Shown here in pieces: positions 15,640-48,436 of a stretch of DNA of 64,000 nucleotides. The stretch lies in assembly GCA_018402085.1 (NCBI GenBank), contig JAGYJM010000002.1:2681501-2745500 (forward strand). Direction: 5' to 3'. The notes under the pieces were generated by a model. That model was given only the letters and a program-made list of their open reading frames with translations, had not been told where the DNA came from and did not search any database. The position numbers and the translations under genes were made by a program. Numbering within the stretch: position 1 is the first letter of the stretch; the number at the start of each line of letters is the position of its first letter. The stretch is from Flavobacteriales bacterium. GTDB lineage: Bacteria; Bacteroidota; Bacteroidia; Flavobacteriales_D; Sanyastnellaceae.

Positions 15640-15643
15640 AAAC

Positions 15644-15651
15644 CAAAAGTA
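15644..15651 (-). promoter_or_regulatory. -7 box for murB, leaderless arrangement
   Basis: The minus strand reads TACTTTTG, then GTTT, then the murB ATG. The expected transcription start would fall at or very near the start codon. Confidence 0.5.
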
Positions 15652-15664
15652 CAGGCTGCCGTTA

Positions 15665-15689
15665 TCGCATCCCGCCGGTAGGCGGAAAA
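15665..15689 (-). repeat. Dispersed hairpin-GAT element 7 (intergenic)
   Basis: On the minus strand the arms are CCGCC and GGCGG, the loop is TACC and the tail is GATGCGAT. It lies between the small ORF at 15712 and murB, over the region where the -33 box of the murB promoter would sit. Confidence 0.65.
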
Positions 15690-15711
15690 GAAGAAACAAC
15701 CAAGTGTTAAA

Positions 15712-15897
15712 TCATGCAATACCCTTCAGCTCTGCTTCACACCATTCGGTAAATTCTGAATACTGCTCAGCGGTCACAAGAATCCAGCGTTGCCCTTCAT
15801 TCTGGATCAAATCGGCGATCAGCTGCATTTCAGGAAAGGTTGTTGCGTGAACCCGATGAACAGCATAACGTGAACCTATTCGCTGGTATTCTGTCAT
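15712..15897 (-). CDS. Hypothetical small protein, 61 residues
   Basis: Starting at the ATG at 15897 the frame encodes a compact 61-residue protein (start MTEYQRIGSRYAVHRVHATT, end EWCEAELKGIA) with no signal peptide or membrane segment. I do not recognise the family. It lies divergent to the TPR gene and upstream of murB on the same strand. The amphipathic, non-repetitive sequence reads like a real small protein, but support is limited to the open frame and context. Confidence 0.45.
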   Translation of the reverse strand: MTEYQRIGSRYAVHRVHATTFPEMQLIADLIQNEGQRWILVTAEQYSEFTEWCEAELKGIA

Positions 15898-15995
15898 TTG
15901 AGTAGCTGAGTGAATACAATACCATGAATTATAGTTGCTACTTGCTCGGTATTGTGGAAACGGTAAATCGGGCACAGCTCGTATTTTTGACAAAG

Positions 15996-16712
15996 ATGGA
16001 AAACAAACACTGGATCGCAGGAAGCCAACTTGCAAGAGAACGAAACTGGGAAGAAGCACTGCTCGCATTTGAGCGGGCCATGGATCAGGTCATTGACAAC
16101 CCTGATCTTATTCACGACCGGGCTGTAGCCATGTTCAATCTCGGCCAGAAAGAAGCCGCCCTGTCAGAACTTGACCGGGCACTTGAACTTCAACCCGATT
16201 ACAGCTACCGCTACTCCTCGCGCGCTTACATGCGCAACGCTCTGAAAGATATTCACGGGGCTATCGAAGACTATAAAAAAGCCATTGAACTTGATCCTGA
16301 AGATGCAATTGCGCACAACAACCTTGGAATGCTCGAAGAACAACTGGGTTACACTAAAGAGGCGCACGACCGCTACAAGGTGGCAGATGAACTGAAAGGA
16401 ATCCTGAGCGAAGCCCAAATTGATAGTAACAGCAGGCAAGAGAAGCACCCGCCTAAAGTTGAGCCTGTCAAAGATGAAGCCGCATACCTAGAAAAGCTCC
16501 GGCGGCATCAGGCGGCCATAGATCAAGAGCAAGCGCTGTCACCAAAGAAACCTGTCGTTATTGAACCTGCAGAGAAGTCATCGGGCTTTTTGAGCGAGGC
16601 CCTTTCGGTGTTCACCAGCAAGAAACGTCGCAAAGAGTTCTTTCGCTTCATCAGGAATGGTTTTAAATTAGAGCCATACAATTCTGATGATCATGAAGAC
16701 CTTTCTCAATGA
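15996..16712 (+). CDS. TPR repeat protein
   Basis: A 238-residue protein with about three tetratricopeptide repeats in residues 1-125 (WEEALLAFERAMD, KEAALSELDRALELQPDY, IHGAIEDYKKAIELDPEDA). A charged linker and a basic C-terminal segment (VFTSKKRRKEFFRFIRNGF) follow. There is no signal peptide, so it is probably a cytoplasmic adaptor. The open frame starts at 15924, but the ATG at 15996 (MENKHWIAGSQLARERNW) fits the repeat start; a TATTTTTG -7 box at 15982-15989 is only six bases upstream, pointing to a leaderless mRNA. Its 3-prime end overlaps the AddB-like gene by 26 bases, implying coupling. Confidence 0.82.
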   Translation: MENKHWIAGSQLARERNWEEALLAFERAMDQVIDNPDLIHDRAVAMFNLGQKEAALSELDRALELQPDYSYRYSSRAYMRNALKDIHGAIEDYKKAIELDPEDAIAHNNLGMLEEQLGYTKEAHDRYKVADELKGILSEAQIDSNSRQEKHPPKVEPVKDEAAYLEKLRRHQAAIDQEQALSPKKPVVIEPAEKSSGFLSEALSVFTSKKRRKEFFRFIRNGFKLEPYNSDDHEDLSQ

Positions 16713-19467
16713 ACTTGCTCAATTTCTTCTTGAAAACCATGGTGCACACCTTGAGCGCGTAACACTGGTGCTGCCCGGGAGAAGAACCGGGATATACCTT
16801 AAAAAAGAACTCAAGGCGGCAGGATATCGAAGTGGGTGGCTACCCGAAATGCGCACCCTTTCGGAGGTTTTGTCAGACATGAGCAAAACTGCTCGAGCTG
16901 ATAAACTCGACCTCCTATTCGAGCTCTATGAGCTTTGGAGGCAGCGCTTTGAACCTGAAGAAAGCTTTAGTCAGTTTCTCCAATGGGGACCAACCATTCT
17001 CTCTGATTTCAACGAAATTGATCATTACCTTCTCAACCCTCGCCAGGTCTTTCGAAACCTGAAGGCCTATAAAGACATAGAACAGTGGAGTTTCGGCGAA
17101 GATGAAGACCAATGGTCTGCCGTACAGCAAGATTTCGCACATTTCTGGGGGCGTCTTCTACCACTCTATGAAGCACTCCAGGATCGAATGTCAGAAACCG
17201 GGCAGTTTTACGGAGGGGCCATTGCCCGCAAAGCAGCCGCGAATCCGGCAGAAGCTTTTGATCGTTTGCATACCGACTACCTCATCGTAGCCGGACTCAG
17301 CGCGCTGACCCCGGCAGAACAGTTTGTGATTAAAAAACTCGAAGAAACCGGGAAGGCCACCATTCTCTGGGACGCTGATCGGTATTATGTAGATGATCGT
17401 CCGCTTGAAGCAGGCCACTTTATGCGGCAGATGCGACAGAATGGCATCCAGATGAAGGCTGGAGCGCACTTTTTGAATGGCAAAAAACACATCACACTTG
17501 CCGGCTGTAGTTCTACTATTACGCAAACCCAGTACGTAAACGAAGTGCTTCAAAAGACAGCGCCTGAGCAAGCGCTTCAAACTGCGGTGATTCTTCCTGA
17601 CAACAGTGTGCTGCCTTCTCTGCTGCCAGCCCTGCCAGAGAAGTTCAGCAGTATCAATGTCACCATGGGAAAACAGCTGAGCCACACTCCGGTCAAAAGC
17701 CTCTTCCATCATGCGTTCAGACTATTTGACATCAAAGGCAACCGACTGAGGCATACAGAAATAACCCAACTGTTGCGGCACCCGATGCTCAGCGGCGCCG
17801 ACGCACCAAATCGTGGTTTTTTCGTTTTCGCCCTACGAGCCATCATACGCAGAAATGAAGTCTTCATTTCAAGTGAGGTCATCGATCGTCTCGTTACTGA
17901 CTTTAAGGCTTCAGGCGAAACCATCTCATCAGAGGTCATTGCTTTCTTCAAACAATTATTTGAAACGCTTAAAAACAGGAGCATCGAAGGAATTCTTGAC
18001 ACCATCGATCGCCTCCTGAATCTTTGCCAACCGCCCACGTCATTAAAAGAACTTCACCAAGCCTGGATCTTGAGCACCGGCATGGTGCAACGACTTCAGC
18101 GAATGCACGATAGGTATCCGGCACTGCAAAGCGCCCGTGACATTGAACGCATCCTCCTATCGCTTCTTTCTCAGGCGCAAATCGATTTGATCGGCGAGCC
18201 CCTGGAAGGCTTGCAAGTTATGGGACTGCTCGAATCACGTGCGCTCGATTTCAAACGCGTGATTTTGCTGAATTGCAATGAAGGTGTGCTGCCTAAGTCA
18301 GGCTTTGGCGATTCCTTTCTGCCTGCAGTGATCCGCAAAGGCTTTCGCTTGCCCACTCCGTTTGATCGGGATGCCATTTTTGCCTACTACACCTACCGCC
18401 TTTTGCAACGAGCCGAAGAAGTGCACCTGGTATATACGGCCGGAGAAAGCTCTTTCAAGAGCGGCGAAAAAAGCCGTTACCTGCAACAGATAGAGAGCTG
18501 TCCGCTTCTCAGGTCGAGCGAGATTACAATCTCACAGCGAAATCTTCTAAGCGAAGCCCCGGTCTCTCAGCCCGATATTCCGCCCATCACGATAGGTAAC
18601 TGGTCAGTAAAACGGTTTGAAGAACTCAAACAAACTGGCCTTTCACCTTCCGGACTGAATAAATGGATCGATTGCCCTAACAATTTCTACCACCGCCATG
18701 TACTCGGCTTCAGGGAGCAAGACGATGTTGAAGAAGAGATCGAACACTCAACTCTCGGAAATATCGTTCACAAGGCCGCAGAGAACGGCTACAAGCGATA
18801 TATGCAACGCCGCCTTCAAGTGAACGATCTCAAAGACCTTAAAAACGACGTCAAAAGGCTCGTTGACGAGGCCCTGGAAGACACTTACCGCAAAGATCTC
18901 ACTTACAGCGGAGTAAACTACCTGAGCAAAGCTGTTGCGAGAAAGTTCGTTGAAAAAATCTTTACCCTCGACGAATATCTCTTGCGCAACGGCGCGAACA
19001 TCAGCATAGAGAATATTGAAGCTAAAATGCACCGCAAAGCAGATAATAAGGGCGCCCTCTTCGGCTTTGCTGACAGAATTGACCGGGTAAACGGCGCGCT
19101 GCGCATTGTAGATTTTAAAACAGGCAAGGTGACCGCAAGCGATTTGAAACTCAAGCCCGATAGCTGGCAGCAAGAGCTCACTGCCGGTAAAAAAGGCAAG
19201 GTTCTGCAAACCCTTATTTACGCATGGCTTTGCAGACAAATATACCATGAACCTGTTACGAGCGGCATTATTTCTACTCGCTCTCACCGGTCAGGCTTTC
19301 TACCTGTAAGCTTTGACAAAACACCACTCATTTTCGATGATGTATTCGAAAAAGAATTCGAAGCATGGCTGCTGGAAATTTTCGCTCAAATAGGCCACCC
19401 GGAGCAAACAGTCATACACACCGAAGGTGCTGAATATTGCGAGTATTGCGTTACTTTGAAGACTTAA
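16687..19467 (+). CDS. AddB-like PD-(D/E)XK nuclease family protein
   Basis: A 926-residue protein resembling the AddB subunit of the AddAB helicase-nuclease used in double-strand break repair. The N-terminal two thirds has the UvrD-like fold, but the Walker A position reads LPGRRTGIYL and lacks GKT, so it is not an active helicase. The C-terminal third is a RecB-type nuclease: LGNIVHKAAENGY (motif His), GFADRID (motif Asp) and VDFKTGK (D-x-K). Cysteines at IDCPNNFYH and in YCEYC near the C-terminus fit the AddB iron-sulfur cluster. The start ATG is 16687 or 16693. The partner helicase AddA is not in the window. Confidence 0.85.
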   Translation: MIMKTFLNELAQFLLENHGAHLERVTLVLPGRRTGIYLKKELKAAGYRSGWLPEMRTLSEVLSDMSKTARADKLDLLFELYELWRQRFEPEESFSQFLQWGPTILSDFNEIDHYLLNPRQVFRNLKAYKDIEQWSFGEDEDQWSAVQQDFAHFWGRLLPLYEALQDRMSETGQFYGGAIARKAAANPAEAFDRLHTDYLIVAGLSALTPAEQFVIKKLEETGKATILWDADRYYVDDRPLEAGHFMRQMRQNGIQMKAGAHFLNGKKHITLAGCSSTITQTQYVNEVLQKTAPEQALQTAVILPDNSVLPSLLPALPEKFSSINVTMGKQLSHTPVKSLFHHAFRLFDIKGNRLRHTEITQLLRHPMLSGADAPNRGFFVFALRAIIRRNEVFISSEVIDRLVTDFKASGETISSEVIAFFKQLFETLKNRSIEGILDTIDRLLNLCQPPTSLKELHQAWILSTGMVQRLQRMHDRYPALQSARDIERILLSLLSQAQIDLIGEPLEGLQVMGLLESRALDFKRVILLNCNEGVLPKSGFGDSFLPAVIRKGFRLPTPFDRDAIFAYYTYRLLQRAEEVHLVYTAGESSFKSGEKSRYLQQIESCPLLRSSEITISQRNLLSEAPVSQPDIPPITIGNWSVKRFEELKQTGLSPSGLNKWIDCPNNFYHRHVLGFREQDDVEEEIEHSTLGNIVHKAAENGYKRYMQRRLQVNDLKDLKNDVKRLVDEALEDTYRKDLTYSGVNYLSKAVARKFVEKIFTLDEYLLRNGANISIENIEAKMHRKADNKGALFGFADRIDRVNGALRIVDFKTGKVTASDLKLKPDSWQQELTAGKKGKVLQTLIYAWLCRQIYHEPVTSGIISTRSHRSGFLPVSFDKTPLIFDDVFEKEFEAWLLEIFAQIGHPEQTVIHTEGAEYCEYCVTLKT

Positions 19468-19477
19468 TTCAAGCTTC

Positions 19478-20770
19478 TTGAAGCGCGTACTCATTCTCAC
19501 GTATTATTGGCCCCCAAGTGGCGGATCTGGCGTTCAACGGTGGTTGAAGTTTGCCAAATACCTGCCAGACTACGGCTGGCAACCGGTGGTGTACACCCCT
19601 GAGAATCCGGAGTACCCCAACCTGGATCACTCATTGCAAAATGACGTGCCGAAATCAGCCGAAATCATCAAAAGGCCCATTATTGAACCGTATAGCATAT
19701 ACAAGAGGTTGGTCGGCATGAAAAAAGATGACCGTATCCACACCGGATTCCTCAGTGATAAAGCAAAACCGGGAACGCTCGAGCAGTTATCGCGGTGGAT
19801 TCGGGGCAACTTCTTCATTCCCGATGCCCGTCGTTTCTGGATTCGTCCGTCAGTGCGTTACCTCAACGCTTACCTGAAATCAAACCCGGTAGACCTCATT
19901 GTGAGCACCGGCCCGCCTCATAGCCTGCACCTTATCGCGAAGGCACTGAAAAAGCGTACAGGTCTGCCCTGGGTTGCTGATTTTCGCGATCCATGGACGA
20001 ATATTGACTTCTACGAAGAATTGATGCTCACCAAACCCGCTGACCGAAAGCACCATCAACTGGAGGCTGCGGTATTGCGTGAGAGCGATAAGGTATTAGT
20101 GGTTGGTCGTGAAATGAAGCGTGAGTTTTCAGCCCTTACATCAGCCGAGAAGATCCACATCATTCCGAACGGTTATGACGCACACGACATCGTCAATGAT
20201 CGCGTTCCTGACCCTGATCCGTTTTTTAGCCTTGCCCACATAGGTAGTTTTTCGCCTGCCCGAAATGTACCGGTACTTTGGTCTGCTCTGGCGCAAAAGC
20301 GCAAGGATGATACCTCCTTTGCTGAACACTTCAGATTAAAAGTAGTAGGCTCGATAGACCATACGGTACGCAAGGGCATTGAAGACGCAGGATTAACCGA
20401 CGCCCTGGTGAACATCCCTTATCTGCCTCACGAAAAGGTCATTGATGAGCAGCGCAAAAGTAGCATGCTACTTCTGGTGGTAAACCAGACAAAAAATGCC
20501 CGGGGTATCGTCACCGGTAAAGTATTCGAATACCTCGCTTCAGGTCGCCCGATTCTCGCGATCGGGCCTCCTGATGGTGACCTGGCGGCCATTCTCGAGG
20601 AATGCAAGGCCGGAAGAGTCATTGATTACGACGACAAAGAAGGTATGTTGAACGCCCTCGAAAATCCGGTCATAGCAGACCCGGTAATGGTAGCTCAGTT
20701 TCGTCGGGAGGCCCTCACAGAAGAACTGAGCTCATCAGTCTTCCAACCGTTAACTTCTTCAGGCTTCTGA
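19478..20770 (+). CDS. Glycosyltransferase family 4 protein
   Basis: A 430-residue GT-B enzyme probably transferring a sugar from a nucleotide donor to a lipid-linked or surface glycan. The N-terminus LILTYYWPPSGGSGVQRWLKF with a glycine-rich loop, WVADFRDPWT near residue 170, and the donor domain ending VFEYLASGRPILAIGP fit the Bacteroidota GT4 group. The start is a TTG at 19478. Gaps of 11 bases from the nuclease gene and 31 to the next glycosyltransferase suggest one transcription unit. A degenerate hairpin element (20286-20312) lies inside. Confidence 0.88.
   Translation: MKRVLILTYYWPPSGGSGVQRWLKFAKYLPDYGWQPVVYTPENPEYPNLDHSLQNDVPKSAEIIKRPIIEPYSIYKRLVGMKKDDRIHTGFLSDKAKPGTLEQLSRWIRGNFFIPDARRFWIRPSVRYLNAYLKSNPVDLIVSTGPPHSLHLIAKALKKRTGLPWVADFRDPWTNIDFYEELMLTKPADRKHHQLEAAVLRESDKVLVVGREMKREFSALTSAEKIHIIPNGYDAHDIVNDRVPDPDPFFSLAHIGSFSPARNVPVLWSALAQKRKDDTSFAEHFRLKVVGSIDHTVRKGIEDAGLTDALVNIPYLPHEKVIDEQRKSSMLLLVVNQTKNARGIVTGKVFEYLASGRPILAIGPPDGDLAAILEECKAGRVIDYDDKEGMLNALENPVIADPVMVAQFRREALTEELSSSVFQPLTSSGF
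20286..20312 (+). repeat. Dispersed hairpin element 8 (degenerate)
   Basis: A GCGC-AAAA-GCGC core extends outward by two further pairs after one mismatch and is followed by GATGAT. It lies in-frame in the glycosyltransferase gene. It is a weak member. Confidence 0.35.
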
Positions 20771-34378: not shown

Positions 34379-34756
34379 TCAGCTACGGCCATAAATCAGT
34401 CTGAAAATCACAATCCCTAAGAAGCATCCCGCCGCATTTGCGGCGAAATCCAACACATCCGAGGTGCGATCAGGACTTACTGTTCCCTGAACCAGTTCAA
34501 GCACCCCTCCATAGGGTAACGCGATCAACATCGTAAAACGTGTGCTGCGTTGACGCACATTACTGAAGGCCGTTTGCCGCTTCAGCCCGGTTTTGAGGAA
34601 CAATGTGAAGAAGGCGAAGAAAGACAGATGCCCGAATTTATCAAACGCCAGTGCATCCCATAGCGATACGTCGGGCATATCTTTACCGGGAATGAAGTAC
34701 AGAAAAGCGATGATAAGTGCCCAGATAAAGCTCCAAATCATGTGCCTCAGGAACAT
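34379..34756 (-). CDS. VanZ family membrane protein
   Basis: A 125-residue protein with four hydrophobic segments. FDKFGHLSFFAFFTLFL, a polar Glu in the third helix (GVLELVQGTVSPDRTSDVLD) and the following AANAAGCFLG match the VanZ-like family. The function of the chromosomal group is unknown, though VanZ itself gives low teicoplanin resistance. It follows gcvH by two bases. A hairpin element (34424-34448) overlaps the last helix. Confidence 0.88.
   Translation of the reverse strand: MFLRHMIWSFIWALIIAFLYFIPGKDMPDVSLWDALAFDKFGHLSFFAFFTLFLKTGLKRQTAFSNVRQRSTRFTMLIALPYGGVLELVQGTVSPDRTSDVLDFAANAAGCFLGIVIFRLIYGRS
34424..34448 (-). repeat. Dispersed hairpin-GAT element 13
   Basis: On the minus strand the arms are CGCCGC and GCGGCG, the loop is AAAT and the tail is GGATGC with one extra G. 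It is sense in vanZ and encodes FAANAAGC in a place where no insertion is evident. Confidence 0.5.
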
Positions 34757-34758
34757 CC

Positions 34759-35136
34759 TCAGGCAATCAGGTCTTTGTACGCTTCATCGGTCAGGAGTGA
34801 ATCAAGCACTGAAGCATCTTCCAGCTTCACTTTGATCATCCATCCTTTGCCATAGGGATCTTCATTGACCAGTTGCGGGTCATCTTCAAGCGCCTCATTG
34901 ACTTCCACGACCTCACCTCTCAGTGGCATAAAAAGGTCTGATACTGTTTTGACCGCCTCAACGGTTCCGAAGACTTCTTCAGCGTCAAGGTTGTCACCTT
35001 CAGTCTCGATTTCAACGAAAACGATATCACCAAGTTCGCCCTGAGCGTAGTCAGTAATACCGATGACGGCTACATCACCCTCTAAACGTACCCATTCGTG
35101 ATCTTTGGTGTAGCGCAGTTCCTTTGGAATATTCAT
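34759..35136 (-). CDS. gcvH: Glycine cleavage system H protein
   Basis: Lipoyl-carrying shuttle protein of the glycine cleavage complex. The 125-residue product shows [12 protein letters not shown], then [13 protein letters not shown], and [20 protein letters not shown] with the lipoylated Lys at about residue 63. It has a -7 box (35154-35161) downstream of sprA, so it can be transcribed separately from that gene. The order ruvA-sprA-gcvH-vanZ is common in Flavobacteriales. Confidence 0.97.
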
Positions 35137-35183: not shown

Positions 35184-38030
35184 CTACTGAGTCAATTGGA
35201 AACGCAGGGTGATCCCTGAGTTGATGTTCGAGGTCGGGAAGGCCGTTGAAATTTTAGGCCTGGTAAGCTGGTGATCATAGAAGAAACGCAGGGTCAATTT
35301 GCTTGATACTTCGAGGTCAGCGGTAGTTTTCAGCGACAAGATACGCTGGCCTGCGGTAGGTTGGTTCTGACGTTCTACCATTTTCCGAATGACCGTAACG
35401 TTGTCACGGATGGTAAGATCTGCGCGCAATGCTACCTGGGTATCTTTGAGCATTTTCACCGGTAGTTTTCCGCGTGATCTGAAGAAAGGATTCGGCACCT
35501 CCGTAAATCGATAACCCACTCCCAGCACGAGCGAGTTACTTCTCGTCTCAGTGATCTGGAAGTTACTCAAGGCGAAGCTCATGGTACGATCGCGTTGCAC
35601 TTCGAGGCGTACCTGCGGGTCATTGCGACCTTCGGTCTTGAGAGTCATATCCATTCCGATGAGCGGAGCGAATTGCTCACTGATGGTCACATTGGTGATT
35701 TGGCGTTGCGGGATGTAATTACCGAAGTCACTGGCATCAATGGCTACTGGAAGCCCGGTTTGAGGATCTTCTTCGTAATTCAGGTTGGTAACGTACGAAG
35801 TACTGATAGTTGATCGGTAGGTGTGGGAAAGGTTAAATTGTTTGAACCGTTTCCGCACTGCCGGCATTTTAGTTAAGCCATCGTAAGTGACCCTCCAGTT
35901 CGGGGCTACACGGGTTTTGAATGGGTCGAGTGCCGCCTGATTGGCATCTTCTCCGGTATAAGCTGAAATAAACGCTGCGATAGCGACGTCTTGCGACGTT
36001 GGTCCCCAACCTTCGTAGTACCCATTATCTTCCGGCTCGGGAACACCGTACGATTCATCGTTCAGGCGCTGAGAAATAATCAGTCTATTGAGGAGGAACT
36101 GATCAAAGACCGCATTGTTGAAGTTTTCGTCGTCGTTCTCAAAAGCCGTAGCGAAGGTGAGTATAGACGCTGTAAAGTTTCCCGTTTGCAGGGGCGACTG
36201 GAAGTCAAAGGCTCCCAATTCCGGGTCAAAGCGGAAGAAACTGTTCTGATTACTTGACTCCTGTCTGTTCGCGCTCAATTCAATCTTGAGGTGAGGAATC
36301 GGTTCAAGATTGGCTCTTAAGTTCCATGTTTCGCTGAATGTTTCAGCGTACTGTTGATTCAGGAAAGGAGAACCCACCATCCAGCCGTTTTCGGCTGCCT
36401 GAACAGCAAAATTACCGGAAGGATTACCCAAAAGGTCAGTATTCTGCCAACCCAGCACGAACGGAATCCCAGGAGCGTCAAACCCGGGATCAAGACCTGC
36501 CACCTGGGTTGTTCTGCCATAACCCGGCAAAAGGATACCTTCATTACGGGTATACGAACCTGACACGTTACGCACCATCATCAGGAATCGCAAGACCGCA
36601 TGTACCGGATTAACTTTCGCCCGGTCATCTTCTTCTTCGTCAGTTTCACCAAATCCGTCGCGGTCTTCGTTTCTGACATTTCGTTGTCTGTTGTTATTGT
36701 TACGCTTAGGCGAATTGATCTCTTTCAGGAGGTCCACCTTGTTGTACAGGTTTAAGAAGTTTGCCTGCACATTCAGGTTCAGGTTTCGCGAATTCTGTAT
36801 GGTATGACCGAGTGAATCTTGCGAGAATGGCGCGCGATCCCACCGATAGGTAGCCTGGTATCTGGCGTCAGAAGAGATGAAGTCAAGCATTGGGATCTTA
36901 TCGAACGGTAGCTTGTAGCTCAATGAAGCGTTATGATTGTAGTTGGTGGTCTCTCCGAAGTTCTGAATGTTGGTCCAGACGCTATCGCGATAGTTTTCGT
37001 ACCAATCGGCGTCATCTCTGTTGATTACCCCTGCAGGCTCTCCGATGAGTGCCTGATTATTGGCTGCAAACTGAAATTTGAGGGCTTTGGTGATGTCGTA
37101 ATTCAGGTTGTACTGACGCGTCCAGTTCCAGGTCTTCATGGCCTGTGTGTTAATCAACACATTGGTCTCAACCCCAAAGAGTTCAGCCGTGTTATTCCGA
37201 ACCCGTGATGTTTCGTAGGTTCGATCCATCTGGGTATTGAAGGTAAAAGACTTGATCCCGGTGTAGAAGTTAAACTCTTTGAGCCATCTAAAGAGCGGGC
37301 TACTTTTGATGAATCCTATTTTCTCGAATGGCCGGACTTCCGTGGGGCGGTTCTGGAAGGCGTAATTCAATCCGCCGGTATAATTCTTCTGCAACTGAAA
37401 CTCCAGGTTGAAGTCACGCCGGTAGGTTTCATTATATCCATACGAGACGCTGAAGTTGGAGATGTCATAAAAGCGCGGTTTATCTTGCCCTCCTGCACCT
37501 TGTTTCGGCTGCTTATTTTCATCTCCCTTACCCTTACCCTTGCCTTTGTCTTTATCTTTTTTCTGTTTATTGGGGTTTGGCTCAGGGTCAATGCGCACAT
37601 TGGTAAAGTTGATACTTCGCCTTCTGACAACTGTTTGTGCTTTCCGCCTTCGTTGGGGAGTGAGGTCGCGTTGATCAAGTTCAATATCGGGTGCCAGCGG
37701 ATCAAACTGAGGTGTGGTTACCTGTTCAGAATAGCCGAGATAAAGGGGCAACTGCACGCCGAGGTTATCCGGGAAGAACTTACCGAGCTGCAGTGTCGTA
37801 TTGGCATCCACGCCTCTGACGGTTTCTCGCTGCCTTTCAAGCACTGCCTGCTCTAGTCCACCCCAACCAGGGGTCGATATATTAGCCGCTACGGAAAGAT
37901 TACCGAAGTCTGCAAGAGTGGCATTCATTCTGGCCACTGCTGCCCATCCGCCTGGTTCGTCGAAATCTGTGAGGCGAAGTTCGTTCACCCACACATTGGT
38001 GCATTTTGAAAGTCCGTCGTCATTACTCAA
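35184..38030 (-). CDS. sprA: SprA, C-terminal portion (second frame)
   Basis: The C-terminal 948 residues of SprA, the very large outer-membrane beta-barrel that forms the type IX secretion translocon. It starts [30 protein letters not shown] if read from the TTG at 38030, which is internal SprA sequence and not an N-terminus; there is no signal peptide. The rest is rich in alternating beta-strand sequence ending in TLRFQLTQ. The frame is -1 relative to the upstream part; adding one T to the TTTT run at the junction would join the two into a protein of about 2465 residues, normal for SprA. Either a sequence error, a real split, or a mutation. Confidence 0.9.
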
Positions 38031-41000
38031 AAGGGATTGCCATCACGCTGCGGATTTCGCACCCCTATCATAACAACAATCACATTTGCGAGATTGGGGT
38101 TTCCTTTCACCTTCAGCATGGCCTCACCATCGGGTTGGGTAAACTCCTGAAAAGCCGGGTAACCTGCAGGTCTGGCAAGTTTCAGGTTTTGAAACTTGGA
38201 GAACTCAATTTCCATGTTGTTTGCCTCGGGCCATATCTGATCGGGGTCACCGGTGAAGAACGGAGTTATCTCAAGGGGCAATTCGTACTCATAGTAGTTC
38301 TCATTAAAGTCACTTCCCAGTCGGATAAAGCATGAAACTTCTTTATCATTCAGCGGCAAACCATCCGGACCGGCTTCAGCGTGAATGAACATTTTGAGCT
38401 TTTTGTAAAGCCTCATATCGAAGCTTACATTTCGATAGGCTGCGCGTGCGTCACCATCTTGCAGATTGCAGACTTCCAGGGAGAGGGATTGTTCATTGAG
38501 GCGTCGCTGGTTGGCCGTGCCTACGTCAATCTCCCGCAATATCCCCGGTGGTATTACATAAGGAACGGGTTCGCGGTTGCCATTTTCTTCTATATTGACC
38601 GCACCAATGGTGAACGTCGTAGGATCGGGGTCATCTGCCTCCACCTCTTGAGGTCCTTCCAGATTTCCAAGGTACTCCCACCACTCACCTCGAACGAGTT
38701 CAAGGCGTGCAAAGCGAAGGGTCACCTCTTCTGACCACCCCTTCATGAACATCCGCATAAAGCGCACCGATCGGAAGTCAGTGATCCCCCCTACCCTCTT
38801 GGTATATCCACGAATTGGAATCTTGAACTGATACCAGCGAATGGTTCGTTGCTCACCGTTGGCGGTTTCAACCGTCTGTTCAAAGCTGTCAGTGATATAG
38901 TTATTACCGATGTTCTCTTCTCCGAGGTCTTGCGGACGCAGTGAGACTTTGTATTGGTAATAAGCCTCAATGGTGCTCAGGGTAATATCCTGGTTGATAT
39001 CTTCGGTATTCGGAATGGTGGTGGCAGCAATCGGATAACCGTCAGGGGTTGCGGTATTGGAGTTATTCTCGTACCCATTAAAATCTTTGTATCGGCGCAG
39101 AATACTCCATTCTTCGTCTTGTGCTTCCGGGTTTCTGAAATATTTAAAATCATCCGCAGACGGGTCAGCCTGGAAACGCTGGAATGCTTCGGGAGTCAGG
39201 AAGCCCTGCACCTGACTCAGCCATTGATCAAAGAAGCCAACCTCTTCCTGGCTGTTTAGTCCGTCGAGACCAATATCCTGCTGAGAGTAATTATTTGTGG
39301 AGTTGTCAAACGCGTTCACCACGTTGAATGTCGCAGGATCCGGGTAAACACCCCAGATTGACTCGAGTACAGGAAGTTCCTGGTTCGGACTAGGAAGTCC
39401 GTTCTCATAACTCAATTGCGAATCATTGAGCACATCTTCAGAAACGTTTCCCAGGTTGATATACAGGTCACCGCCGTTAACATTTTCGCTGTCCTGGTTG
39501 AATGGATCCATGAGCCAGAACTGAACAAACTGAATGTTTGAGGCTTCAAAGTCAGTGGTAATGAGTGGGCGTTGGATCCCCGCCCATCTGGATTCAGGTT
39601 CAACGAGTGTTCCATCAGGGGTCAAACCGGCAGAAACGCCTGGGGCCCCGTTTGGCAATTCATAGTTGTATGGTCCGCGTTCATTGGGGTAATAAGTCAT
39701 GTCAAGGGTAGGGATCAGCGGCGGGGTTCCTGCCGGAAGCTCTCTGTTCGGGAACACCTCCCCTTCGAGTACTTCTCTCATCCGGTGGTCGCTTTTCACA
39801 TCTGCTGAGACCTGTCCGTCAGGCAGTCCGTTCCCTCTGAAAAACTGCGGATCAATGGTATACCATGATAACTTTGCGCGGTTGTAATTATAGATCAGTG
39901 AATCTTCAAGGTCACCTTCCGGGAAAATATCTGCTTGTAATTTAGGTGTACTGGCAATGAACCACTGGTTGATCGAGCGGATATCGATCACTGACTGGCT
40001 TCCTTCAAAGTCATCGATATAGGCATTTCCGTCTTGTCCGATCGCCCTTGAGTAGCCGGGTATGAGGTAAGCCGCTTCCGCAGCAACATCTACCGATGAT
40101 TTGGCTTTCGTGTCAATCAGCGGAATCTTATCGACCATGCGGGTAATGAAGTCAGATTCAGTGCGATAAGCCAGATCGGCACCAACAATGGTGTTATTCA
40201 CCGGTTCATCTCCGATATTCACCTTCTGTGTGAGTGGTCTTTCTCTTAAATTCAATATAGTCGCCCCTACATTGAGTTCGTCGCTAACTTCGTAATCGAA
40301 TCGGCTACCAATCATGGTTCTCATCTGTATGTTGAACAGCGAGTTACTTTCAAGCGAAATATTGATTGGCGTGCCCGATTCAAGGAGCCCCTCGTTAAGT
40401 ATTCTCACACGACCGAGGTTGTAATCGACGGTATAATCTTGGTTTTCAACAAGCCGCACTCCACCGGCAGTTACCGTAACTGACCCCTGCGGCACATTTA
40501 GTGCATTCAATGAGATTTCAGAACCTGATTGCGACTGGAACTGTCCGCGAATACTGAATCGGTTCAGGGATGGTATTTGCTGTGCTGCCGTTTTGGTAGA
40601 GTCATAGAGAGGCTGGTAGACAATGGTATTGACCAGGGCTTGTTCCTGGTCTGGATCTGCTACCTGTTCTCTGATTTCCCTTTCGAGATGCGATCCGAAG
40701 GGCTCCACAACGGGGAAGAATATTCGTCCGGTCTGAGACTGTATGGTACCTCCCTGTGTAGCGGCATTGTCAATAAAGTCGAAGAAACCATCCCGATTCG
40801 GTATGTTGTTGACGTCAAGGCGATCGAGGTTCAGCAGTTGGAGTAACAGATCATCGTCAAAAGGTTCACGTGGGATATAATTCAGATCAACGCCTGTAGA
40901 GGGGTCATTGTACCATACATCTACGCGAAAATTCTCGCGGCTAATCCCGAAGGCTCCCATGCTGTAGACGTTTTTCATCATGAGATCCCACATGGGAGCA

Positions 41001-42580
41001 GGATCACCATTGTCAAGCACAACCTGAGTCACAGAAGACTTCAGCATTTTCAAGATCAGAGAACTCGGCGCCGTGTAACCATCCTGTGAAAGCGTACCCA
41101 CCTGATAGGTCTGTCCGTTCAAGGTGTATTCGTAAGATACGGCAAGCACTTCCGCATTATTGAGGGCCTGGCGCAATGAGATGAAACCCAGGCGGGCGTT
41201 GTAGGTGTATTCAGAGGGGCTCAGCATCCGGGCGTTACCCACGCGCTCATAGTGGATCCCTTGCTGATAGCCCATCTGCATTTGCGAGATCGCTGCATTT
41301 GCCCCTGTGTACCCCATGACCTGCTCATTCTCAGTCATATCAAGGAATACATCATTGTTGAGGTTGTTGGGTTGGCCATTCGGATTGATCGCCAGATCAG
41401 GGCGATCAGTCAACTGATCAATGGGCAGGTTTGATGACATGTAGTCTGGGTGTTCACCCAGGTCAGCGAAGGCAATGACATTTCGAACATTTTGAGTATT
41501 GGCCTGCATGTTTACTGCCCACACTTCAATACGCGTAATGTTCACACCCGAATTCACAACAGGGAGGCTCGCACAGGCTTCATCATACTGATCGCGGAAC
41601 CAATTAGAAAGAAAGTAGTGTCTGTTGGCCTCGTAATTATCGGCACGAATATCAAATATCTGGGTTTGGGCACCTCCTTCCACGGTGATTTCACTGCGCT
41701 CACCCTGCTGCTGCGAGAATACCGTAGTGTTGCGCAATCGCCCGAACTGGGTTTCCATTTTAACCCCAAACAGGCTCTGGCTTCCTGAAATCAGGGTTCC
41801 TTGCAGGGGCATACTCACGTTACCGGCCTCAATCTTCTTAATGATCTCATCTTCGTCTCCTGTGTACTCCAGCTTCATCTGGTTTTCGAAGTCGAAGGTG
41901 GCCTCGGTATTATACTGCGTGGTCAGCTGCATCTTCGTGCCGATGTTTCCGACTACATTGAGCTGAATGCGCTGGTTAAAATCGAATGTAGTGATTCGGC
42001 GCTGTCGCTCCGGAATCCGGGGGTTCTCGGTATTTGACATATTGAAGCCGAAGGTAAGCTCGGCTGAGCCCTGCGGACGAATTTCAATTTCGTTGCTACC
42101 GAAAATGTTCTTGAATCCTTCACCGCCGATGTTCAGCTTTGGCGCCCATGCCCGGTTGGCCTCATCTTCTTCTTCCTGGCGCTCAGCCCAATATTCTGAG
42201 ATGTTGTTTTGAATGTCGTATTCCAGAAACTCGTCAAGCGTGTAGGAAGACGGACTCCTGAAAACGAGTGAGTCTCCGAGGGTCTGAACGACCTCATATT
42301 CACCTGTTTCAGGGTTGTACTGCACATCGTAGTTGATGTTATCTGGCCAGTCAAGGGAGATCCCCCCGGTGTTTTCAACCGGGTTAAACGGGTCTTCACC
42401 GTGAGGGAGGGGCAAGTCAAGGTCACCTGTGTCTTGCTCAAGCACAATTGGCTTGAACACCGGTGGTGCCGGACGCCAAACATCCGGAGCTTCACCGGCT
42501 TTGCTGACCCAGAATATACCGGTCAGCAACAACAGCGCAATTCCGCTGATCAGGTATTTACCCCTCAATCGCTTCATCAC
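38027..42580 (-). CDS. sprA: SprA, N-terminal portion (first frame)
   Basis: The N-terminal 1517 residues of SprA. A membrane or signal segment (YLISGIALLLLTGIFWVSKAG) leads into the mature region with family stretches such as GGEGFKNIFGSNEIEIRPQG and FDFENQMKLEYTGDEDEIIKKIEAGNVSMPL. Also seen: PGYSRAIGQDGNAYIDDFEGSQSVIDIRS and the C-terminal [16 protein letters not shown] followed by a stop. The stop falls in TTTTGA, where the C-terminal portion opens in the -1 frame. The ATG overlaps the ruvA stop (42577-42580), so maeB-ruvA-sprA form one unit. SprA should be needed to secrete the T9SS cargo encoded elsewhere in the window. Confidence 0.93.
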   Translation of the reverse strand: MMKRLRGKYLISGIALLLLTGIFWVSKAGEAPDVWRPAPPVFKPIVLEQDTGDLDLPLPHGEDPFNPVENTGGISLDWPDNINYDVQYNPETGEYEVVQTLGDSLVFRSPSSYTLDEFLEYDIQNNISEYWAERQEEEDEANRAWAPKLNIGGEGFKNIFGSNEIEIRPQGSAELTFGFNMSNTENPRIPERQRRITTFDFNQRIQLNVVGNIGTKMQLTTQYNTEATFDFENQMKLEYTGDEDEIIKKIEAGNVSMPLQGTLISGSQSLFGVKMETQFGRLRNTTVFSQQQGERSEITVEGGAQTQIFDIRADNYEANRHYFLSNWFRDQYDEACASLPVVNSGVNITRIEVWAVNMQANTQNVRNVIAFADLGEHPDYMSSNLPIDQLTDRPDLAINPNGQPNNLNNDVFLDMTENEQVMGYTGANAAISQMQMGYQQGIHYERVGNARMLSPSEYTYNARLGFISLRQALNNAEVLAVSYEYTLNGQTYQVGTLSQDGYTAPSSLILKMLKSSVTQVVLDNGDPAPMWDLMMKNVYSMGAFGISRENFRVDVWYNDPSTGVDLNYIPREPFDDDLLLQLLNLDRLDVNNIPNRDGFFDFIDNAATQGGTIQSQTGRIFFPVVEPFGSHLEREIREQVADPDQEQALVNTIVYQPLYDSTKTAAQQIPSLNRFSIRGQFQSQSGSEISLNALNVPQGSVTVTAGGVRLVENQDYTVDYNLGRVRILNEGLLESGTPINISLESNSLFNIQMRTMIGSRFDYEVSDELNVGATILNLRERPLTQKVNIGDEPVNNTIVGADLAYRTESDFITRMVDKIPLIDTKAKSSVDVAAEAAYLIPGYSRAIGQDGNAYIDDFEGSQSVIDIRSINQWFIASTPKLQADIFPEGDLEDSLIYNYNRAKLSWYTIDPQFFRGNGLPDGQVSADVKSDHRMREVLEGEVFPNRELPAGTPPLIPTLDMTYYPNERGPYNYELPNGAPGVSAGLTPDGTLVEPESRWAGIQRPLITTDFEASNIQFVQFWLMDPFNQDSENVNGGDLYINLGNVSEDVLNDSQLSYENGLPSPNQELPVLESIWGVYPDPATFNVVNAFDNSTNNYSQQDIGLDGLNSQEEVGFFDQWLSQVQGFLTPEAFQRFQADPSADDFKYFRNPEAQDEEWSILRRYKDFNGYENNSNTATPDGYPIAATTIPNTEDINQDITLSTIEAYYQYKVSLRPQDLGEENIGNNYITDSFEQTVETANGEQRTIRWYQFKIPIRGYTKRVGGITDFRSVRFMRMFMKGWSEEVTLRFARLELVRGEWWEYLGNLEGPQEVEADDPDPTTFTIGAVNIEENGNREPVPYVIPPGILREIDVGTANQRRLNEQSLSLEVCNLQDGDARAAYRNVSFDMRLYKKLKMFIHAEAGPDGLPLNDKEVSCFIRLGSDFNENYYEYELPLEITPFFTGDPDQIWPEANNMEIEFSKFQNLKLARPAGYPAFQEFTQPDGEAMLKVKGNPNLANVIVVMIGVRNPQRDGNPF

Positions 42581-43161
42581 AATTGCTTAAGAGCCAACTT
42601 AATCAGCTCTTCCACGGAAATCGTTGGTCCCTCCGTTTTCAAGATATTGTCGAGAGTTTTAGATGCTTTGGTTTTGTCGAAGCCAAGCGACGACAATGCC
42701 AATAACGCTTCTGAACGTATGGTATTGCCCGACGTAGAAACTTTTTCAGCACCAACTTCGAAGGCTGGAAATTTATCGTGCAAATCAACGATTATTCGCT
42801 GTGCTGTTTTTGCGCCAATGCCTTTAATACGCTTGAAGGCTTCTACATCTCTGCCCATAATGACCTCTGTCAAGTCTGAGGGCTTCATTGAGCTCAGCAC
42901 CATTCTTGCGGTGTTGGCACCAACGCCTGAAACAGAGGTAAGCTGCCGAAACGACTCTCGCTCGTGCTGATCTGCAAACCCGAACAATTCATGGGCGTCT
43001 TCCCGGATCACCTCCTGTACGAGGAGGGTGACCTGTTCGCCGGTTTTCAATTGTTCTGCTGTATTCAGGCTTACATGCAGGTAATAACCGATACCGCCAC
43101 ATTCAATCACCGCGTGCGTGGGCGAGTTCTCCGTCAGGATTCCTTTCAGATGGTGAATCAT
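42577..43161 (-). CDS. ruvA: Holliday junction branch migration protein RuvA
   Basis: DNA-binding subunit of the RuvAB branch-migration motor. The 194-residue product has the N-terminal OB fold (MIHHLKGILTENSPTHAVIE, GGIGYYLHVS), two helix-hairpin-helix motifs (LTSVSGVGANTARMVLS, FKRIKGIGAKTAQRIIVDL) and a C-terminal RuvB-binding domain (EALLALSSLGFDKTKASKTL). I use the ATG at 43161, just past the maeB stop. The stop overlaps the sprA start by four bases. Confidence 0.96.
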   Translation of the reverse strand: MIHHLKGILTENSPTHAVIECGGIGYYLHVSLNTAEQLKTGEQVTLLVQEVIREDAHELFGFADQHERESFRQLTSVSGVGANTARMVLSSMKPSDLTEVIMGRDVEAFKRIKGIGAKTAQRIIVDLHDKFPAFEVGAEKVSTSGNTIRSEALLALSSLGFDKTKASKTLDNILKTEGPTISVEELIKLALKQL

Positions 43162-43162
43162 A

Positions 43163-45427
43163 TTATTTGTTTTGCGCATCTACCACGGCGATGCGCACCA
43201 TATTAATGATCTCGCGAACAGACGAACCCATCTGCAGGATGTGAACCGACTTGCGCATTCCTAGCAGAATGGGGCCGATTACCTCCTTATCTCCCATTTC
43301 CTGTATCAGCTTATAGGCAATGTTGCCGGCTGAAAGATTTGGGAATATCAATGTATTGGTCTTTCGGGCGCGCAAGGTAGAAAAAGGAAAGTTCTCTGCG
43401 ATCAACTCATTATTGAGCGCAAAGTTGGCCTGTATTTCACCGTCAACAATTACTTGCGGATGCTCACGATGCAGGATTTCAACGGCCTTCCTCATTTTCT
43501 CTGCATCTCTACCGCTGGCAGAACCGAAATTGGAGTAACTGAGCATTGCGATTCTTGGCGTAATGCGCATACGGCGCACTGCCTCAGAAACCAGAAGGGT
43601 GATGTCAACCAGCTCTTCTGCACTTGGGTCAACATTGACGGTGGTATCTGCAAAAAACATCGGCCCGCTGGTGCTTTGCACCACATACATGCCCGCCACT
43701 TTACTTACGCCATCTTCCATTCCGATGATCTGAAGCGCCGGACGAATCACTCTGCGGTAGTTACGGGTAAGGCCTGAGATGAGTGCATCAGCCTCACCGG
43801 TCTCTACGAGCATGGCACCGAAGTAGTTTCGGTCGCGAAGTGCCTTGCGTGCATCAAACAAAGTCATTCCCTTGCGCTGGCGCTTCGCAAAAAGCATTTC
43901 GGCAAACTCGTCACGGCGATCTTCTTCTTCAGTCGAGCGCGGGTCAATGATGACCGGATTCTTGAGGTCGATATTGTTTTCTTCAATCAGGCGCTCGATG
44001 CGATCCCGTTTTCCGAGCAGTATAGGCTCTGCGATACCCTCGTCAACCGCCTGCTCGGCGGCCTTCAGGATCTTGTAGTTGTCAGCTTCAGCGAAGACCA
44101 CGCGCTTCGGACTTTTTCGTGCCCGTTCAGAAATGCTGCGAATTAGTTTATTGTCGCGACCGAGGCGACGGCTCAACTCTTGTTCATAGGCCGCCCAGTC
44201 ATCGATCTTTGTGCGCGCCACTCCTGATTCAATGGCAGCCTTGGCGACGGCGGTCGATACAGACGTAATCAATCTGGGATCGAGCGGTTTAGGGATGATA
44301 AGGTCTCGTCCGAAACTGATGTTTCGCATATCATAGGCTTCATTCACTTCATCAGGAACACTTTCTTTTGCCAACTCCGCAATGGCGTAAACCGCGGCGA
44401 GTTTCATTTCATTGTTGATGCTACGTGCGCGCACATCAAGGGCACCTCTGAAGATGTAGGGGAACCCAAGCACATTGTTAACCTGGTTCGGATTATCAGA
44501 GCGGCCGGTGGCCATAATGACATCGGGGCGGGATTCCATTGCGAGGTCATACCCGATTTCCGGATCCGGGTTTGCAAGGGCGAAGACAATCGGATTATCT
44601 GCCATCGATTGCACCATTTCAGGCGTCACAATCCCTCCGGTGCTCAGGCCCAGAAACACATCCGCGCTTTTCAGCGCGTCAGCCAGGTCGTCAAAATACA
44701 AGTCAGTAGCCAGCAACTGTTTGCGCTCATCGAGGTTCTCTCTCGAACTATGTATCAGGCCTTTTGAATCGAAGACCACGATATTTTCTCTCTTTGCCCC
44801 AAGTTGGCGATAAAGATCAAGGCAAGACACAGCTGCAGCACCTGCGCCACTGACCACGATTCTTACGTTTTCAATTTTCTTCTCTGCAAGCTCAAGCGCA
44901 TTGAGCAGGGCGGCGCTCGATATGATTGCAGTACCGTGCTGATCATCATGCATCACCGGAATATCGAGCTCTTCAACCAGTCTGCGCTCAATTTCAAAAG
45001 CCTCTGGCGCCTTGATGTCTTCCAGGTTAATGCCCCCAAAGGTTGGGGCGATGGCCTTTACGGTATCTACGAAACGATCTACATCGCTGGCGTCTACTTC
45101 TATGTCGAAGACATCAATATCTGCGAAGATCTTAAAGAGCACGCCTTTGCCTTCCATTACGGGTTTGCTGGCTTCGGGCCCGATGTTTCCGAGACCGAGC
45201 ACCGCTGTACCATTGCTGATCACCGCTACGAGATTGCCTTTGGTTGTGTACTGGTACACGTCTTCAGGGTTCTCAGCAATCGCAAGACATGGTTCGGCTA
45301 CGCCCGGAGAATAGGCGAGCGAGAGGTCTCGTTGTGAACTGTACGGCTTGGAAGGGATGACTTCCAGCTTTCCTTTGCGCCCTGAAGAGTGATACTCCAG
45401 TGCCTCCTGCTTTCTGATTTTGCTCAT
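43163..45427 (-). CDS. maeB: NADP-dependent malic enzyme with phosphotransacetylase-like domain
   Basis: Decarboxylates malate to pyruvate with NADP reduction. The 754-residue protein has the malic domain ([14 protein letters not shown], then [10 protein letters not shown] near residue 160), the Rossmann domain ([15 protein letters not shown] near 195), and from about residue 430 a phosphate acetyltransferase-like domain that regulates rather than catalyses in MaeB. A -7 box lies at 45436-45443. A hairpin element (44657-44680) is inside. It opens the unit maeB-ruvA-sprA. Confidence 0.95.
44657..44680 (-). repeat. Dispersed hairpin-GAT element 14
   Basis: On the minus strand the arms are CGCGCT and AGCGCG, the loop is GAAA and the tail is GATGTG. 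It is sense in maeB and encodes ALKSADV, which also fits the ordinary family sequence. Confidence 0.5.
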
Positions 45428-46328: not shown

Positions 46329-46960
46329 AAGCGCATTACTTCTTCCAAATATACTGACAAAATCATCATTACCCGAAGCAGCAGCACAGCCTTTCACATG
46401 AATTGGATTTTTGGGAATCCAACTCTCCTGCATCTTGCGGCCGCAGAGTAAAGAACGATAGCGTCCGGAAAACCCCGCAATCATCCATTGGGAATGGTGT
46501 CTACTTTCATAGTTGACCTTTGCATTACGATGTGGATCTGTTTTTCGCTTGTTGAGCCACTCCGGAAAGCTTTCACTTTCCACAACCCAATTCACCGACA
46601 TAGCAATCAGCCTGTTAGCCCTTCAGAATGAATACTTTTTATTGTCATCCGGACAGCAACGACTGGCAGGGTCTTGTGCTCACTCATCGCCGTCTACCCT
46701 ACCCGGAACACCAATCGTGCGAAGCCCTTTAAAGGTGTCAGCCATCCGACTTTGGGCACTTCCCTTCATCGCAGGTGCTAACCGTCGCATCCCGCCTTTT
46801 CAGGCGGAAAAGTGCAGAGAGCCCGCAATCAAAATGGTATGCACGCCTCACAAAGTGACGAATTGGATTACGATAATTTGAAGAAAGAACAGAGATTTAA
46901 CGTGTGAATAACCCTACATTTACGAGACCAAATTTTGAGAATCAACACAATCCTTTCATT
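46329..46960. other. 632-base region without a supported gene
   Basis: Divergent spacer between two T9SS cargo genes. Open frames exist on both strands (for example 46513-46881 plus), but their translations look like non-coding sequence. The region holds one clear hairpin element at 46785-46811 and a possible promoter for the plus-strand gene around TACATTTA near 46914. Otherwise I see nothing in it; it could be a decayed gene. Confidence 0.5.
46785..46811 (-). repeat. Dispersed hairpin-GAT element 17 (intergenic)
   Basis: On the minus strand the arms are CCGCCT and AGGCGG, the loop is GAAA, the tail is GATGCGA, and TTTT precedes the stem. It is intergenic in the 632-base spacer. Confidence 0.75.
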
Positions 46961-48436
46961 ATGAAGCAATTTTTACGCTCTATCACACTTATGGCCGCTT
47001 TGATGATGGCCTTCACCGCTCAGGCGCAATTGCCAAACGGCAGCATCTGCCCTGATTTCACAGGTACCGACATTGACGGAAACACCTGGAACCTTTATGA
47101 CCTTCTTGATGAAGGCAAGGCGGTAATCATTGAAATTTCAGCTACCTGGTGCGGCCCTTGCTGGGGATACCACACGTCAAATGAGTTGAAAGACTTCTAC
47201 AACGCTTACGGTCCTGACGGCACCAATGAGGCGATGGTTTTGTTCATCGAAGGTGATGGCCAAACGGGTATGGAAGACCTGATGGGAAACACCGGATCTA
47301 CTCAAGGTGACTGGATCACCGGCACACCGTTTCCGATCATTGACGATGCGAGTATCTCGAACCTTCTTTCTGTTGGTTACTTCCCAACCATCTACACGGT
47401 TTGCCCGAGCCGCGTAATCACTGAGACCGGTCAAGGCTCAATGGAAGATCACTATGCTTTCATTCAGGAAAATGCTTGTCAGCCGGCATCCCTCAGCAAC
47501 GACCCGTCATTGATTGCATACAACGGTGCAACCGAAGTATGTGGCGAAGCAGGTGTTCCTGTTACCTTGATGAATTTCGGACTTCAGCCTTTGACCGCTG
47601 CAACAATTGAAGTAAGCAGCAACGGCCAGGTTCTCGCAACAGAAGAATGGACAGGCAACCTCAACACCTATGAAACAGAAATCGTAAACGTAGGTACCGT
47701 TTCGGTTGACGGTTCACTTGACATTGATGTCGACATCACAAGCACTGACGACAACATGCAAAACAACTCGCTGAGTGCATCACTCGTTCAGGGTGAAGCC
47801 GAGGTAGCCACTACCCACATCTACATTGAAGTTCTTACTGACGAGTGGGCGGGTGAAACCGGTCTTGAACTGACCAACACAACCACCGGAGAAGTTGTTT
47901 TCTCTATTGCTGCAGGTGAACTTGGAAACGTAACCCCTTATCAGTGGGATGTGTTTGTACCATCAGCCGGCTGCTACGCATTCCGTATTACCGACACCTA
48001 TGGCGACGGTATGAACGGAACCCAGTGGGGTGGCAGCGCAGGTTACTGTGGTGTGTTTGCTTACCAGGATGGTGAGTGGTTCAACGAGATCTACTCTTAC
48101 GATGGGTCTTACGATTTCGTAACCGAGTCAGCACTTGCTGACGTGCAAACCGTTGTTTCTGTTGAAGAAAACGAAGCGGTGGCTGATCTCAACGTATATC
48201 CGAACCCAACCAATGGCATCCTCAACCTGAACTTCAATACGCTTGACGCTTCTGAAGTGACTGTGGAGCTGGTTAACCTCCTCGGAGCGGTTGTGATCCG
48301 TGAAGATTTGGGCACCCTGCAGGCAGGTGCACAGCGTCTTCAGTACGATTTGACAAATCTTGAAGCAGGAATGTACCTGATGAACGTGACTGTTGACGGT
48401 GAAATGACTACCGTTCGCGTGAACCTCACCAAGTAA
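46961..48436 (+). CDS. Secreted thioredoxin-fold protein with type A T9SS sorting domain
   Basis: A 491-residue exported protein. Signal peptide MKQFLRSITLMAALMMAFTA, ending AQAQ, sets the ATG at 46961. Residues about 25-180 form a TlpA/redoxin-like domain with the redox motif CGPC in SATWCGPCWGYH. A CARDB- or Ig-like region follows, then SAGCYAFRITDTYGDGMNG, and the last 75 residues (VYPNPTNGILNLNF, LLGAVVIRED, LEAGMYLMNVTVDG) are a type A sorting domain. It is probably a surface thiol-disulfide oxidoreductase or Omp28-like protein. It is followed by a very strong terminator and another thioredoxin gene. Confidence 0.9.
   Translation: MKQFLRSITLMAALMMAFTAQAQLPNGSICPDFTGTDIDGNTWNLYDLLDEGKAVIIEISATWCGPCWGYHTSNELKDFYNAYGPDGTNEAMVLFIEGDGQTGMEDLMGNTGSTQGDWITGTPFPIIDDASISNLLSVGYFPTIYTVCPSRVITETGQGSMEDHYAFIQENACQPASLSNDPSLIAYNGATEVCGEAGVPVTLMNFGLQPLTAATIEVSSNGQVLATEEWTGNLNTYETEIVNVGTVSVDGSLDIDVDITSTDDNMQNNSLSASLVQGEAEVATTHIYIEVLTDEWAGETGLELTNTTTGEVVFSIAAGELGNVTPYQWDVFVPSAGCYAFRITDTYGDGMNGTQWGGSAGYCGVFAYQDGEWFNEIYSYDGSYDFVTESALADVQTVVSVEENEAVADLNVYPNPTNGILNLNFNTLDASEVTVELVNLLGAVVIREDLGTLQAGAQRLQYDLTNLEAGMYLMNVTVDGEMTTVRVNLTK

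Follow-up and report, generated by a model that had tools for sequence, protein, structure and literature searches.

The sprA locus and its two reading frames

The window analysed here, a stretch of 64,000 nucleotides from a Flavobacteriales bacterium, carries on its minus strand an sprA gene that is read in two frames. The N-terminal frame (38027..42580, minus strand) encodes 1517 aa and ends in DGNPF followed by a TGA stop; its listed start is GTG with an ATG directly after it, and it opens with a signal-peptide-like N-terminus (MKRLRGKYLISGIALLLLTGIFWVSKA). The C-terminal frame (35184..38030, minus strand) comprises 948 codons and a stop, lies in the -1 frame relative to the N-terminal frame, and is open from merely 13 bases above the N-frame stop codon. 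The two frames share the four bases TTGA (38027..38030, minus strand), where one base has apparently been lost: the minus strand reads GGC AAT CCC TTT TGA GTA ATG in the N frame and TTG AGT AAT GAC GAC GGA in the C frame. A reading of this DNA from sequence alone (the sequence-only reading) had described sprA as split in two frames, with the first ending in NPF-stop, and both points were confirmed on the sequence; the joined length of about 2465 residues that it proposed also holds (1517 + 948 = 2465), the same-genus length being 2468.

The split gene is flanked upstream by ruvA (42577..43179, minus strand; Pfam RuvA_N and RuvA_C) and downstream by gcvH (34759..35136, minus strand; Pfam GCV_H), the next gene downstream being VanZ-like (34379..34756, minus strand; Pfam VanZ). 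Two genes upstream of sprA, a malic enzyme fused to a phosphate acetyl/butyryl transferase domain occupies one open frame (43163-45427). No Rfam element was found in the window at the gathering score.

Both products belong to one family. The first product matches positions 3-1415 of the NCBIfam model TIGR04189 (Sov/SprA) with 1722.7 bits and the second matches positions 1415-2318 of 2319 with 714.3 bits, the curated cut-off being 200 bits; the halves jointly span the model, which bears out the earlier claim of a one-base loss in an otherwise whole gene. Likewise, both frames match a single solved chain (PDB 6h3i, 6h3j), residues 34-1492 being covered by the first frame and residues 1502-1649 plus 1649-2400 by the second. 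The Pfam domain SprA_N is itself interrupted by the break, and in the two-contig genome of 3.78 Mb a second sprA copy was not found, the two halves being the sole SprA_N matches. Where a single continuous frame of about 2400 codons is expected of SprA/Sov, 1517 and 948 codons are present instead; since the relatives are continuous, we file the gene as a broken member of the family. Further lesions were not found in the C-terminal half. A coding-potential Viterbi scan did not flag sprA as frameshifted, because it reads the junction as an ordinary gene boundary.

SprA forms a barrel of 36 strands that opens laterally, and cargo bound to PorV presumably exits by this opening (PMC10994853). The first product has a hydrophobic stretch after KRLRGK, its best 15-residue hydropathy stretch within the first 70 residues scoring 2.29. 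In the second product hydropathy revealed no hydrophobic export signal (its first 70 residues reach at most 0.93), so that it should not reach the periplasm by Sec. As written, the two pieces should therefore not form a working channel without special help.

A type 9 secretion system (T9SS) cargo protein with a C-terminal sorting domain lies at 46904..48436 on the plus strand (Pfam Por_Secre_tail, 49.5 bits), in keeping with the earlier report of T9SS cargo genes in the window, and genome-wide there are at least 136 matches to the same cargo tail, 128 of them above the cut-off, among the 150 of 175 candidates that were scored. Short cargo-tail frames are in no clear excess over the same-genus genome G002: an open frame of fewer than 200 codons accompanies 5 of those 136 matches in the source genome and, with 150 of 209 candidates scored in G002, 3 of 150 there. 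Other T9SS genes that were tested are kept, GldM in one open frame; the source genome also holds two proteins of the Peptidase_C25 family, which we take to be linked to PorU.

Continuity of sprA among relatives

To place the split, the N-terminal product was searched over 60 genomes, that is, the source genome and 59 relatives. Each of the 60 gave an SprA match without an internal stop, some of the matches ending at contig edges. In the two other genomes of the genus sprA occupies one frame of 2468 codons each, and a single uninterrupted alignment runs over the junction in 103 of 109 relative loci, while in five of the remaining six the alignment ends at a contig or locus edge near the junction. 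Six refetched genes brought the set to 115 loci; sorting these by the 200-base stretches that they share gives 101 groups (about 101 distinct genes). At least 2250 codons stand in one frame in 70 of these 115, and the other 45 are in one frame as far as the locus reaches, with four exceptions: L059 has a small inverted piece at the contig end, L026 and L028 have a stop opposite residue 9, where the alignment has only just begun, and L078 is the case described below. No frameshift in sprA was seen in the covered parts of the 115 loci, although one close to the end of a gene could have escaped notice. The claim that relatives have no such split is upheld across this set (115 loci, about 101 distinct, 45 of them short); wherever the junction is readable the relatives cross it in one frame, in contrast to the two frames here. 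To date, then, the split has been seen in this assembly alone, and it is not a conserved feature.

In L078, from a Bacteroidales metagenome-assembled genome, sprA stays in frame but is interrupted by a stop codon that aligns with residue 1407 of the G002 protein, some 113 residues upstream of the junction. The closest named records by SprA are metagenome-assembled genomes labelled Flavobacteriales, at no more than 75% identity in the best segment.

The junction sits between the conserved motifs GVRNP and WVNEL, in a loop whose length varies among relatives. Synonymous differences are near saturation, so that only a comparison among relatives is meaningful for dating the lesion. Amino acid identities of the downstream half to four relatives were set against those of G002: 0.784 in the window and 0.769 in G002 to G016, 0.716 and 0.737 to G007, 0.695 and 0.713 to G034, and 0.605 and 0.607 to G020. 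The gaps are at most about two points, the window being higher once and lower three times, which suggests no clear acceleration. An old pseudogene is rejected, as the downstream half bears no further lesion and its identities stay within about two points of those of G002; the lesion is thus either an artefact or very recent.

The missing base and single-base indels in the assembly

At the junction both same-genus genomes read AAC CCA TTT GTG AGC and G016 reads AAC CCC TTT GTG GCT. Given TTT GTG in near relatives, loss of one non-T base yields the window sequence directly, and on parsimony, which falls short of proof, there is no need to assume that one T out of five was lost. G003, with AAC CCG TTC CAA GCT, leaves the ancestral codon uncertain. 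A run of four T is ordinary in this genome, where 544 kb hold 3145 A/T runs of that length. A signature of truncated homopolymers was sought and not seen, A/T runs of 6 to 9 being no rarer than in the control genome; runs of 10 numbered 0 in the source genome and 2 in the control. The sequence-only reading had proposed an error in a T homopolymer: error stands as the leading cause, but the homopolymer part is poorly supported, given the ordinary four-T run and TTT GTG in the relatives. Loss of a base outside a homopolymer is less typical of long-read errors.

Three genes of the same assembly contain between them five single-base indels, each confined to a lone copy of a near-identical repeat; these could be real pseudogenes. 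In a gene for a glycine-rich repeat protein (L118:14266-19736) one of four near-identical copies loses the frame at a G-run, which reads GGGG in that copy, GGGGG in two others and GGTGG in the last. At L140:3777-9257 lie three tandem, closely related T9SS cargo paralogues, and two single-base indels disrupt the one in the middle: compared with a nearly identical paralogue, CCCC is reduced to CCC and one extra base is present, both changes being frame-breaking. Two more relatives of these paralogues lie at about 2.14 and 2.16 Mb on the same contig. The third gene lies within 20 kb of the right-hand edge of the window, in a very large, repeat-rich, minus-strand coding region that occupies several frames (L183:6007-15030) and perhaps continues in an ORF at 15263-19999. 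One of about six copies of its 1167-base unit reads AA in place of AAA and has gained a G, a pair that breaks and then restores the frame; the sixth copy is divergent at the second place. In another array, L118:7988-14033, one-base gaps were not found among five near-identical copies.

In unique sequence such breaks are scarce. Across the fetched stretches of the source genome, 196 kb of coding sequence could be aligned to proteins of the same genus (G002, G001), and sprA alone is broken there, so that the error rate there must be low; a few errors per million bases would nevertheless occasionally suffice to strike a 7.4 kb gene. The reverse control, with 190 kb of G002 matched, gave three flags, none of which was judged a real break: the coordinates of two show antisense or upstream extensions of the query ORF, and the third was dismissed on reading the sequence. 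Closely packed gene pairs that change frame and have no ATG close by were found 3 times in 544 kb of the source genome and twice in 540 kb of the control.

The Viterbi scan served merely to list candidates, and ten of the listed places were compared with Pfam. At L118 and at L140 the ORFs resembled fragments of a single gene. The two sides belonged to different families at L119, L128, L129, L133 and L138, and at L130 each ORF has its own glycosyltransferase domain; L127 showed a family on one side only, and at L144 the second ORF alone was scanned. Near position 1612 of L125, a cargo gene may contain another frame break; its C-terminal part shares 89% identity with a cargo gene in L139. Repeat pairs with small gaps were also seen at L130, L135 and L139.

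Origin and meaning of the split

Explanations in which both frames are put to use, by a working two-piece SprA or by a programmed frameshift, are improbable even when counted jointly. In a true two-gene sprA, translation would restart from the TTG within the overlap, and both chains would form the barrel with the junction in its variable loop. The overlap does resemble a translationally coupled stop/start, both halves are intact and not clearly accelerated, and the break falls where length varies in relatives; against this stand the absence of an export signal from the second product by hydropathy (0.93 versus 2.29), a junction start codon that is only TTG and the single frame of the same-genus relatives, and we hold the arrangement to be very unlikely. 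Scarcely credible is programmed -1 ribosomal frameshifting that would join the two frames. The frames overlap and the C frame is -1 to the N frame, as this would need, but the slippery heptamer X XXY YYZ is absent and T CCC TTT would re-pair poorly; as the sequence-only reading had noted, no slip is workable here, a +1 slip giving GAG TAA and a -1 slip leaving the TTT tRNA on CTT. Nor does the RNA downstream of the junction form a stable structure, with z = +1.22 over 126 nt in a model without pseudoknots and 177 of 200 shuffles folding at least as well, and the two-frame arrangement occurs in 0 of the 115 relative loci (about 101 distinct, some cut short). Lacking slippery site, structure and conservation, programmed frameshifting was rejected. 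No natural split of sprA is described in the excerpts of PMC9233685 and PMC5524665.

What has chiefly to be weighed is whether the base was lost by the cell or by the assembly. We favour a one-base consensus error, at a probability of roughly 60%: the organism would have an ordinary single-frame sprA, the outer-membrane translocon of the T9SS, and the assembled sequence would be short of one base in the variable loop, giving an apparent frame break, while the cell itself would still have the base that the consensus lacks. This reading draws on a single-copy gene with two complete halves and a family model continuous across the break, on relatives free of sprA frameshifts (115 loci, the same-genus pair at 2468 codons), on a downstream half not clearly accelerated beside retained GldM, Peptidase_C25 and cargo genes, on the five single-base indels in lone repeat copies, and on the want of a slippery site and of a stable fold downstream. 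As with the residual indels of long-read assemblies (PMC9262707, seen in excerpt), the frame is broken in an otherwise intact conserved gene; unlike them, breaks are few here in matched unique sequence and the run is at most five T. That sprA is the only break in 196 kb, that the array at L118:7988-14033 is free of one-base gaps, and that a parsimonious ancestral GTG beside just four T implies a loss outside a homopolymer all count against an error. The alternative, a serious rival though distinctly less probable, is a real and very recent loss-of-function deletion in a strain or population without T9SS secretion, as could arise where phages put pressure on cell-surface proteins, in which the first frame would give a truncated product and the second would not be exported. 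Precedent for it comes from part of PMC9233685, on Flavobacterium columnare exposed to phage V156: sprA stop codons arose in three isolates of one replicate (Table 2), one isolate had a mid-gene single-nucleotide sprA deletion and kept the Rhizoid morphotype, and another had lost one base from a poly-A run in sprA (8 to 7). In Cytophaga hutchinsonii, where secretion of most cargo needs SprA, sprA deletion mutants could be made and are secretion-defective (PMC7906972). Because of the single-base deletions in F. columnare, a real recent mutation deserves more weight than the sequence-only reading gave it; the lesion is likewise a single-base deletion in mid-sprA, but those isolates came from an evolution experiment, whereas here the base may be absent only from the assembly. 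The lone break in 196 kb of matched sequence and the in-frame stop inside sprA of one relative, L078, also suit a real loss. A downstream half without clear decay, the retention of cargo and other tested T9SS genes, and the lack of a frameshifted sprA among the 115 relative loci (about 101 distinct) speak against it.

The sprA split is thus most likely an assembly error or, failing that, a very recent gene loss, rather than a novel type of gene, and it flags the assembly for a check against the reads. As it is so far private to one assembly and shows no sign of decay, it is to be taken neither for a secretion-deficient lineage nor for a new split-channel architecture; a broken sprA, if real, would stop export of the organism's many type 9 cargo proteins.
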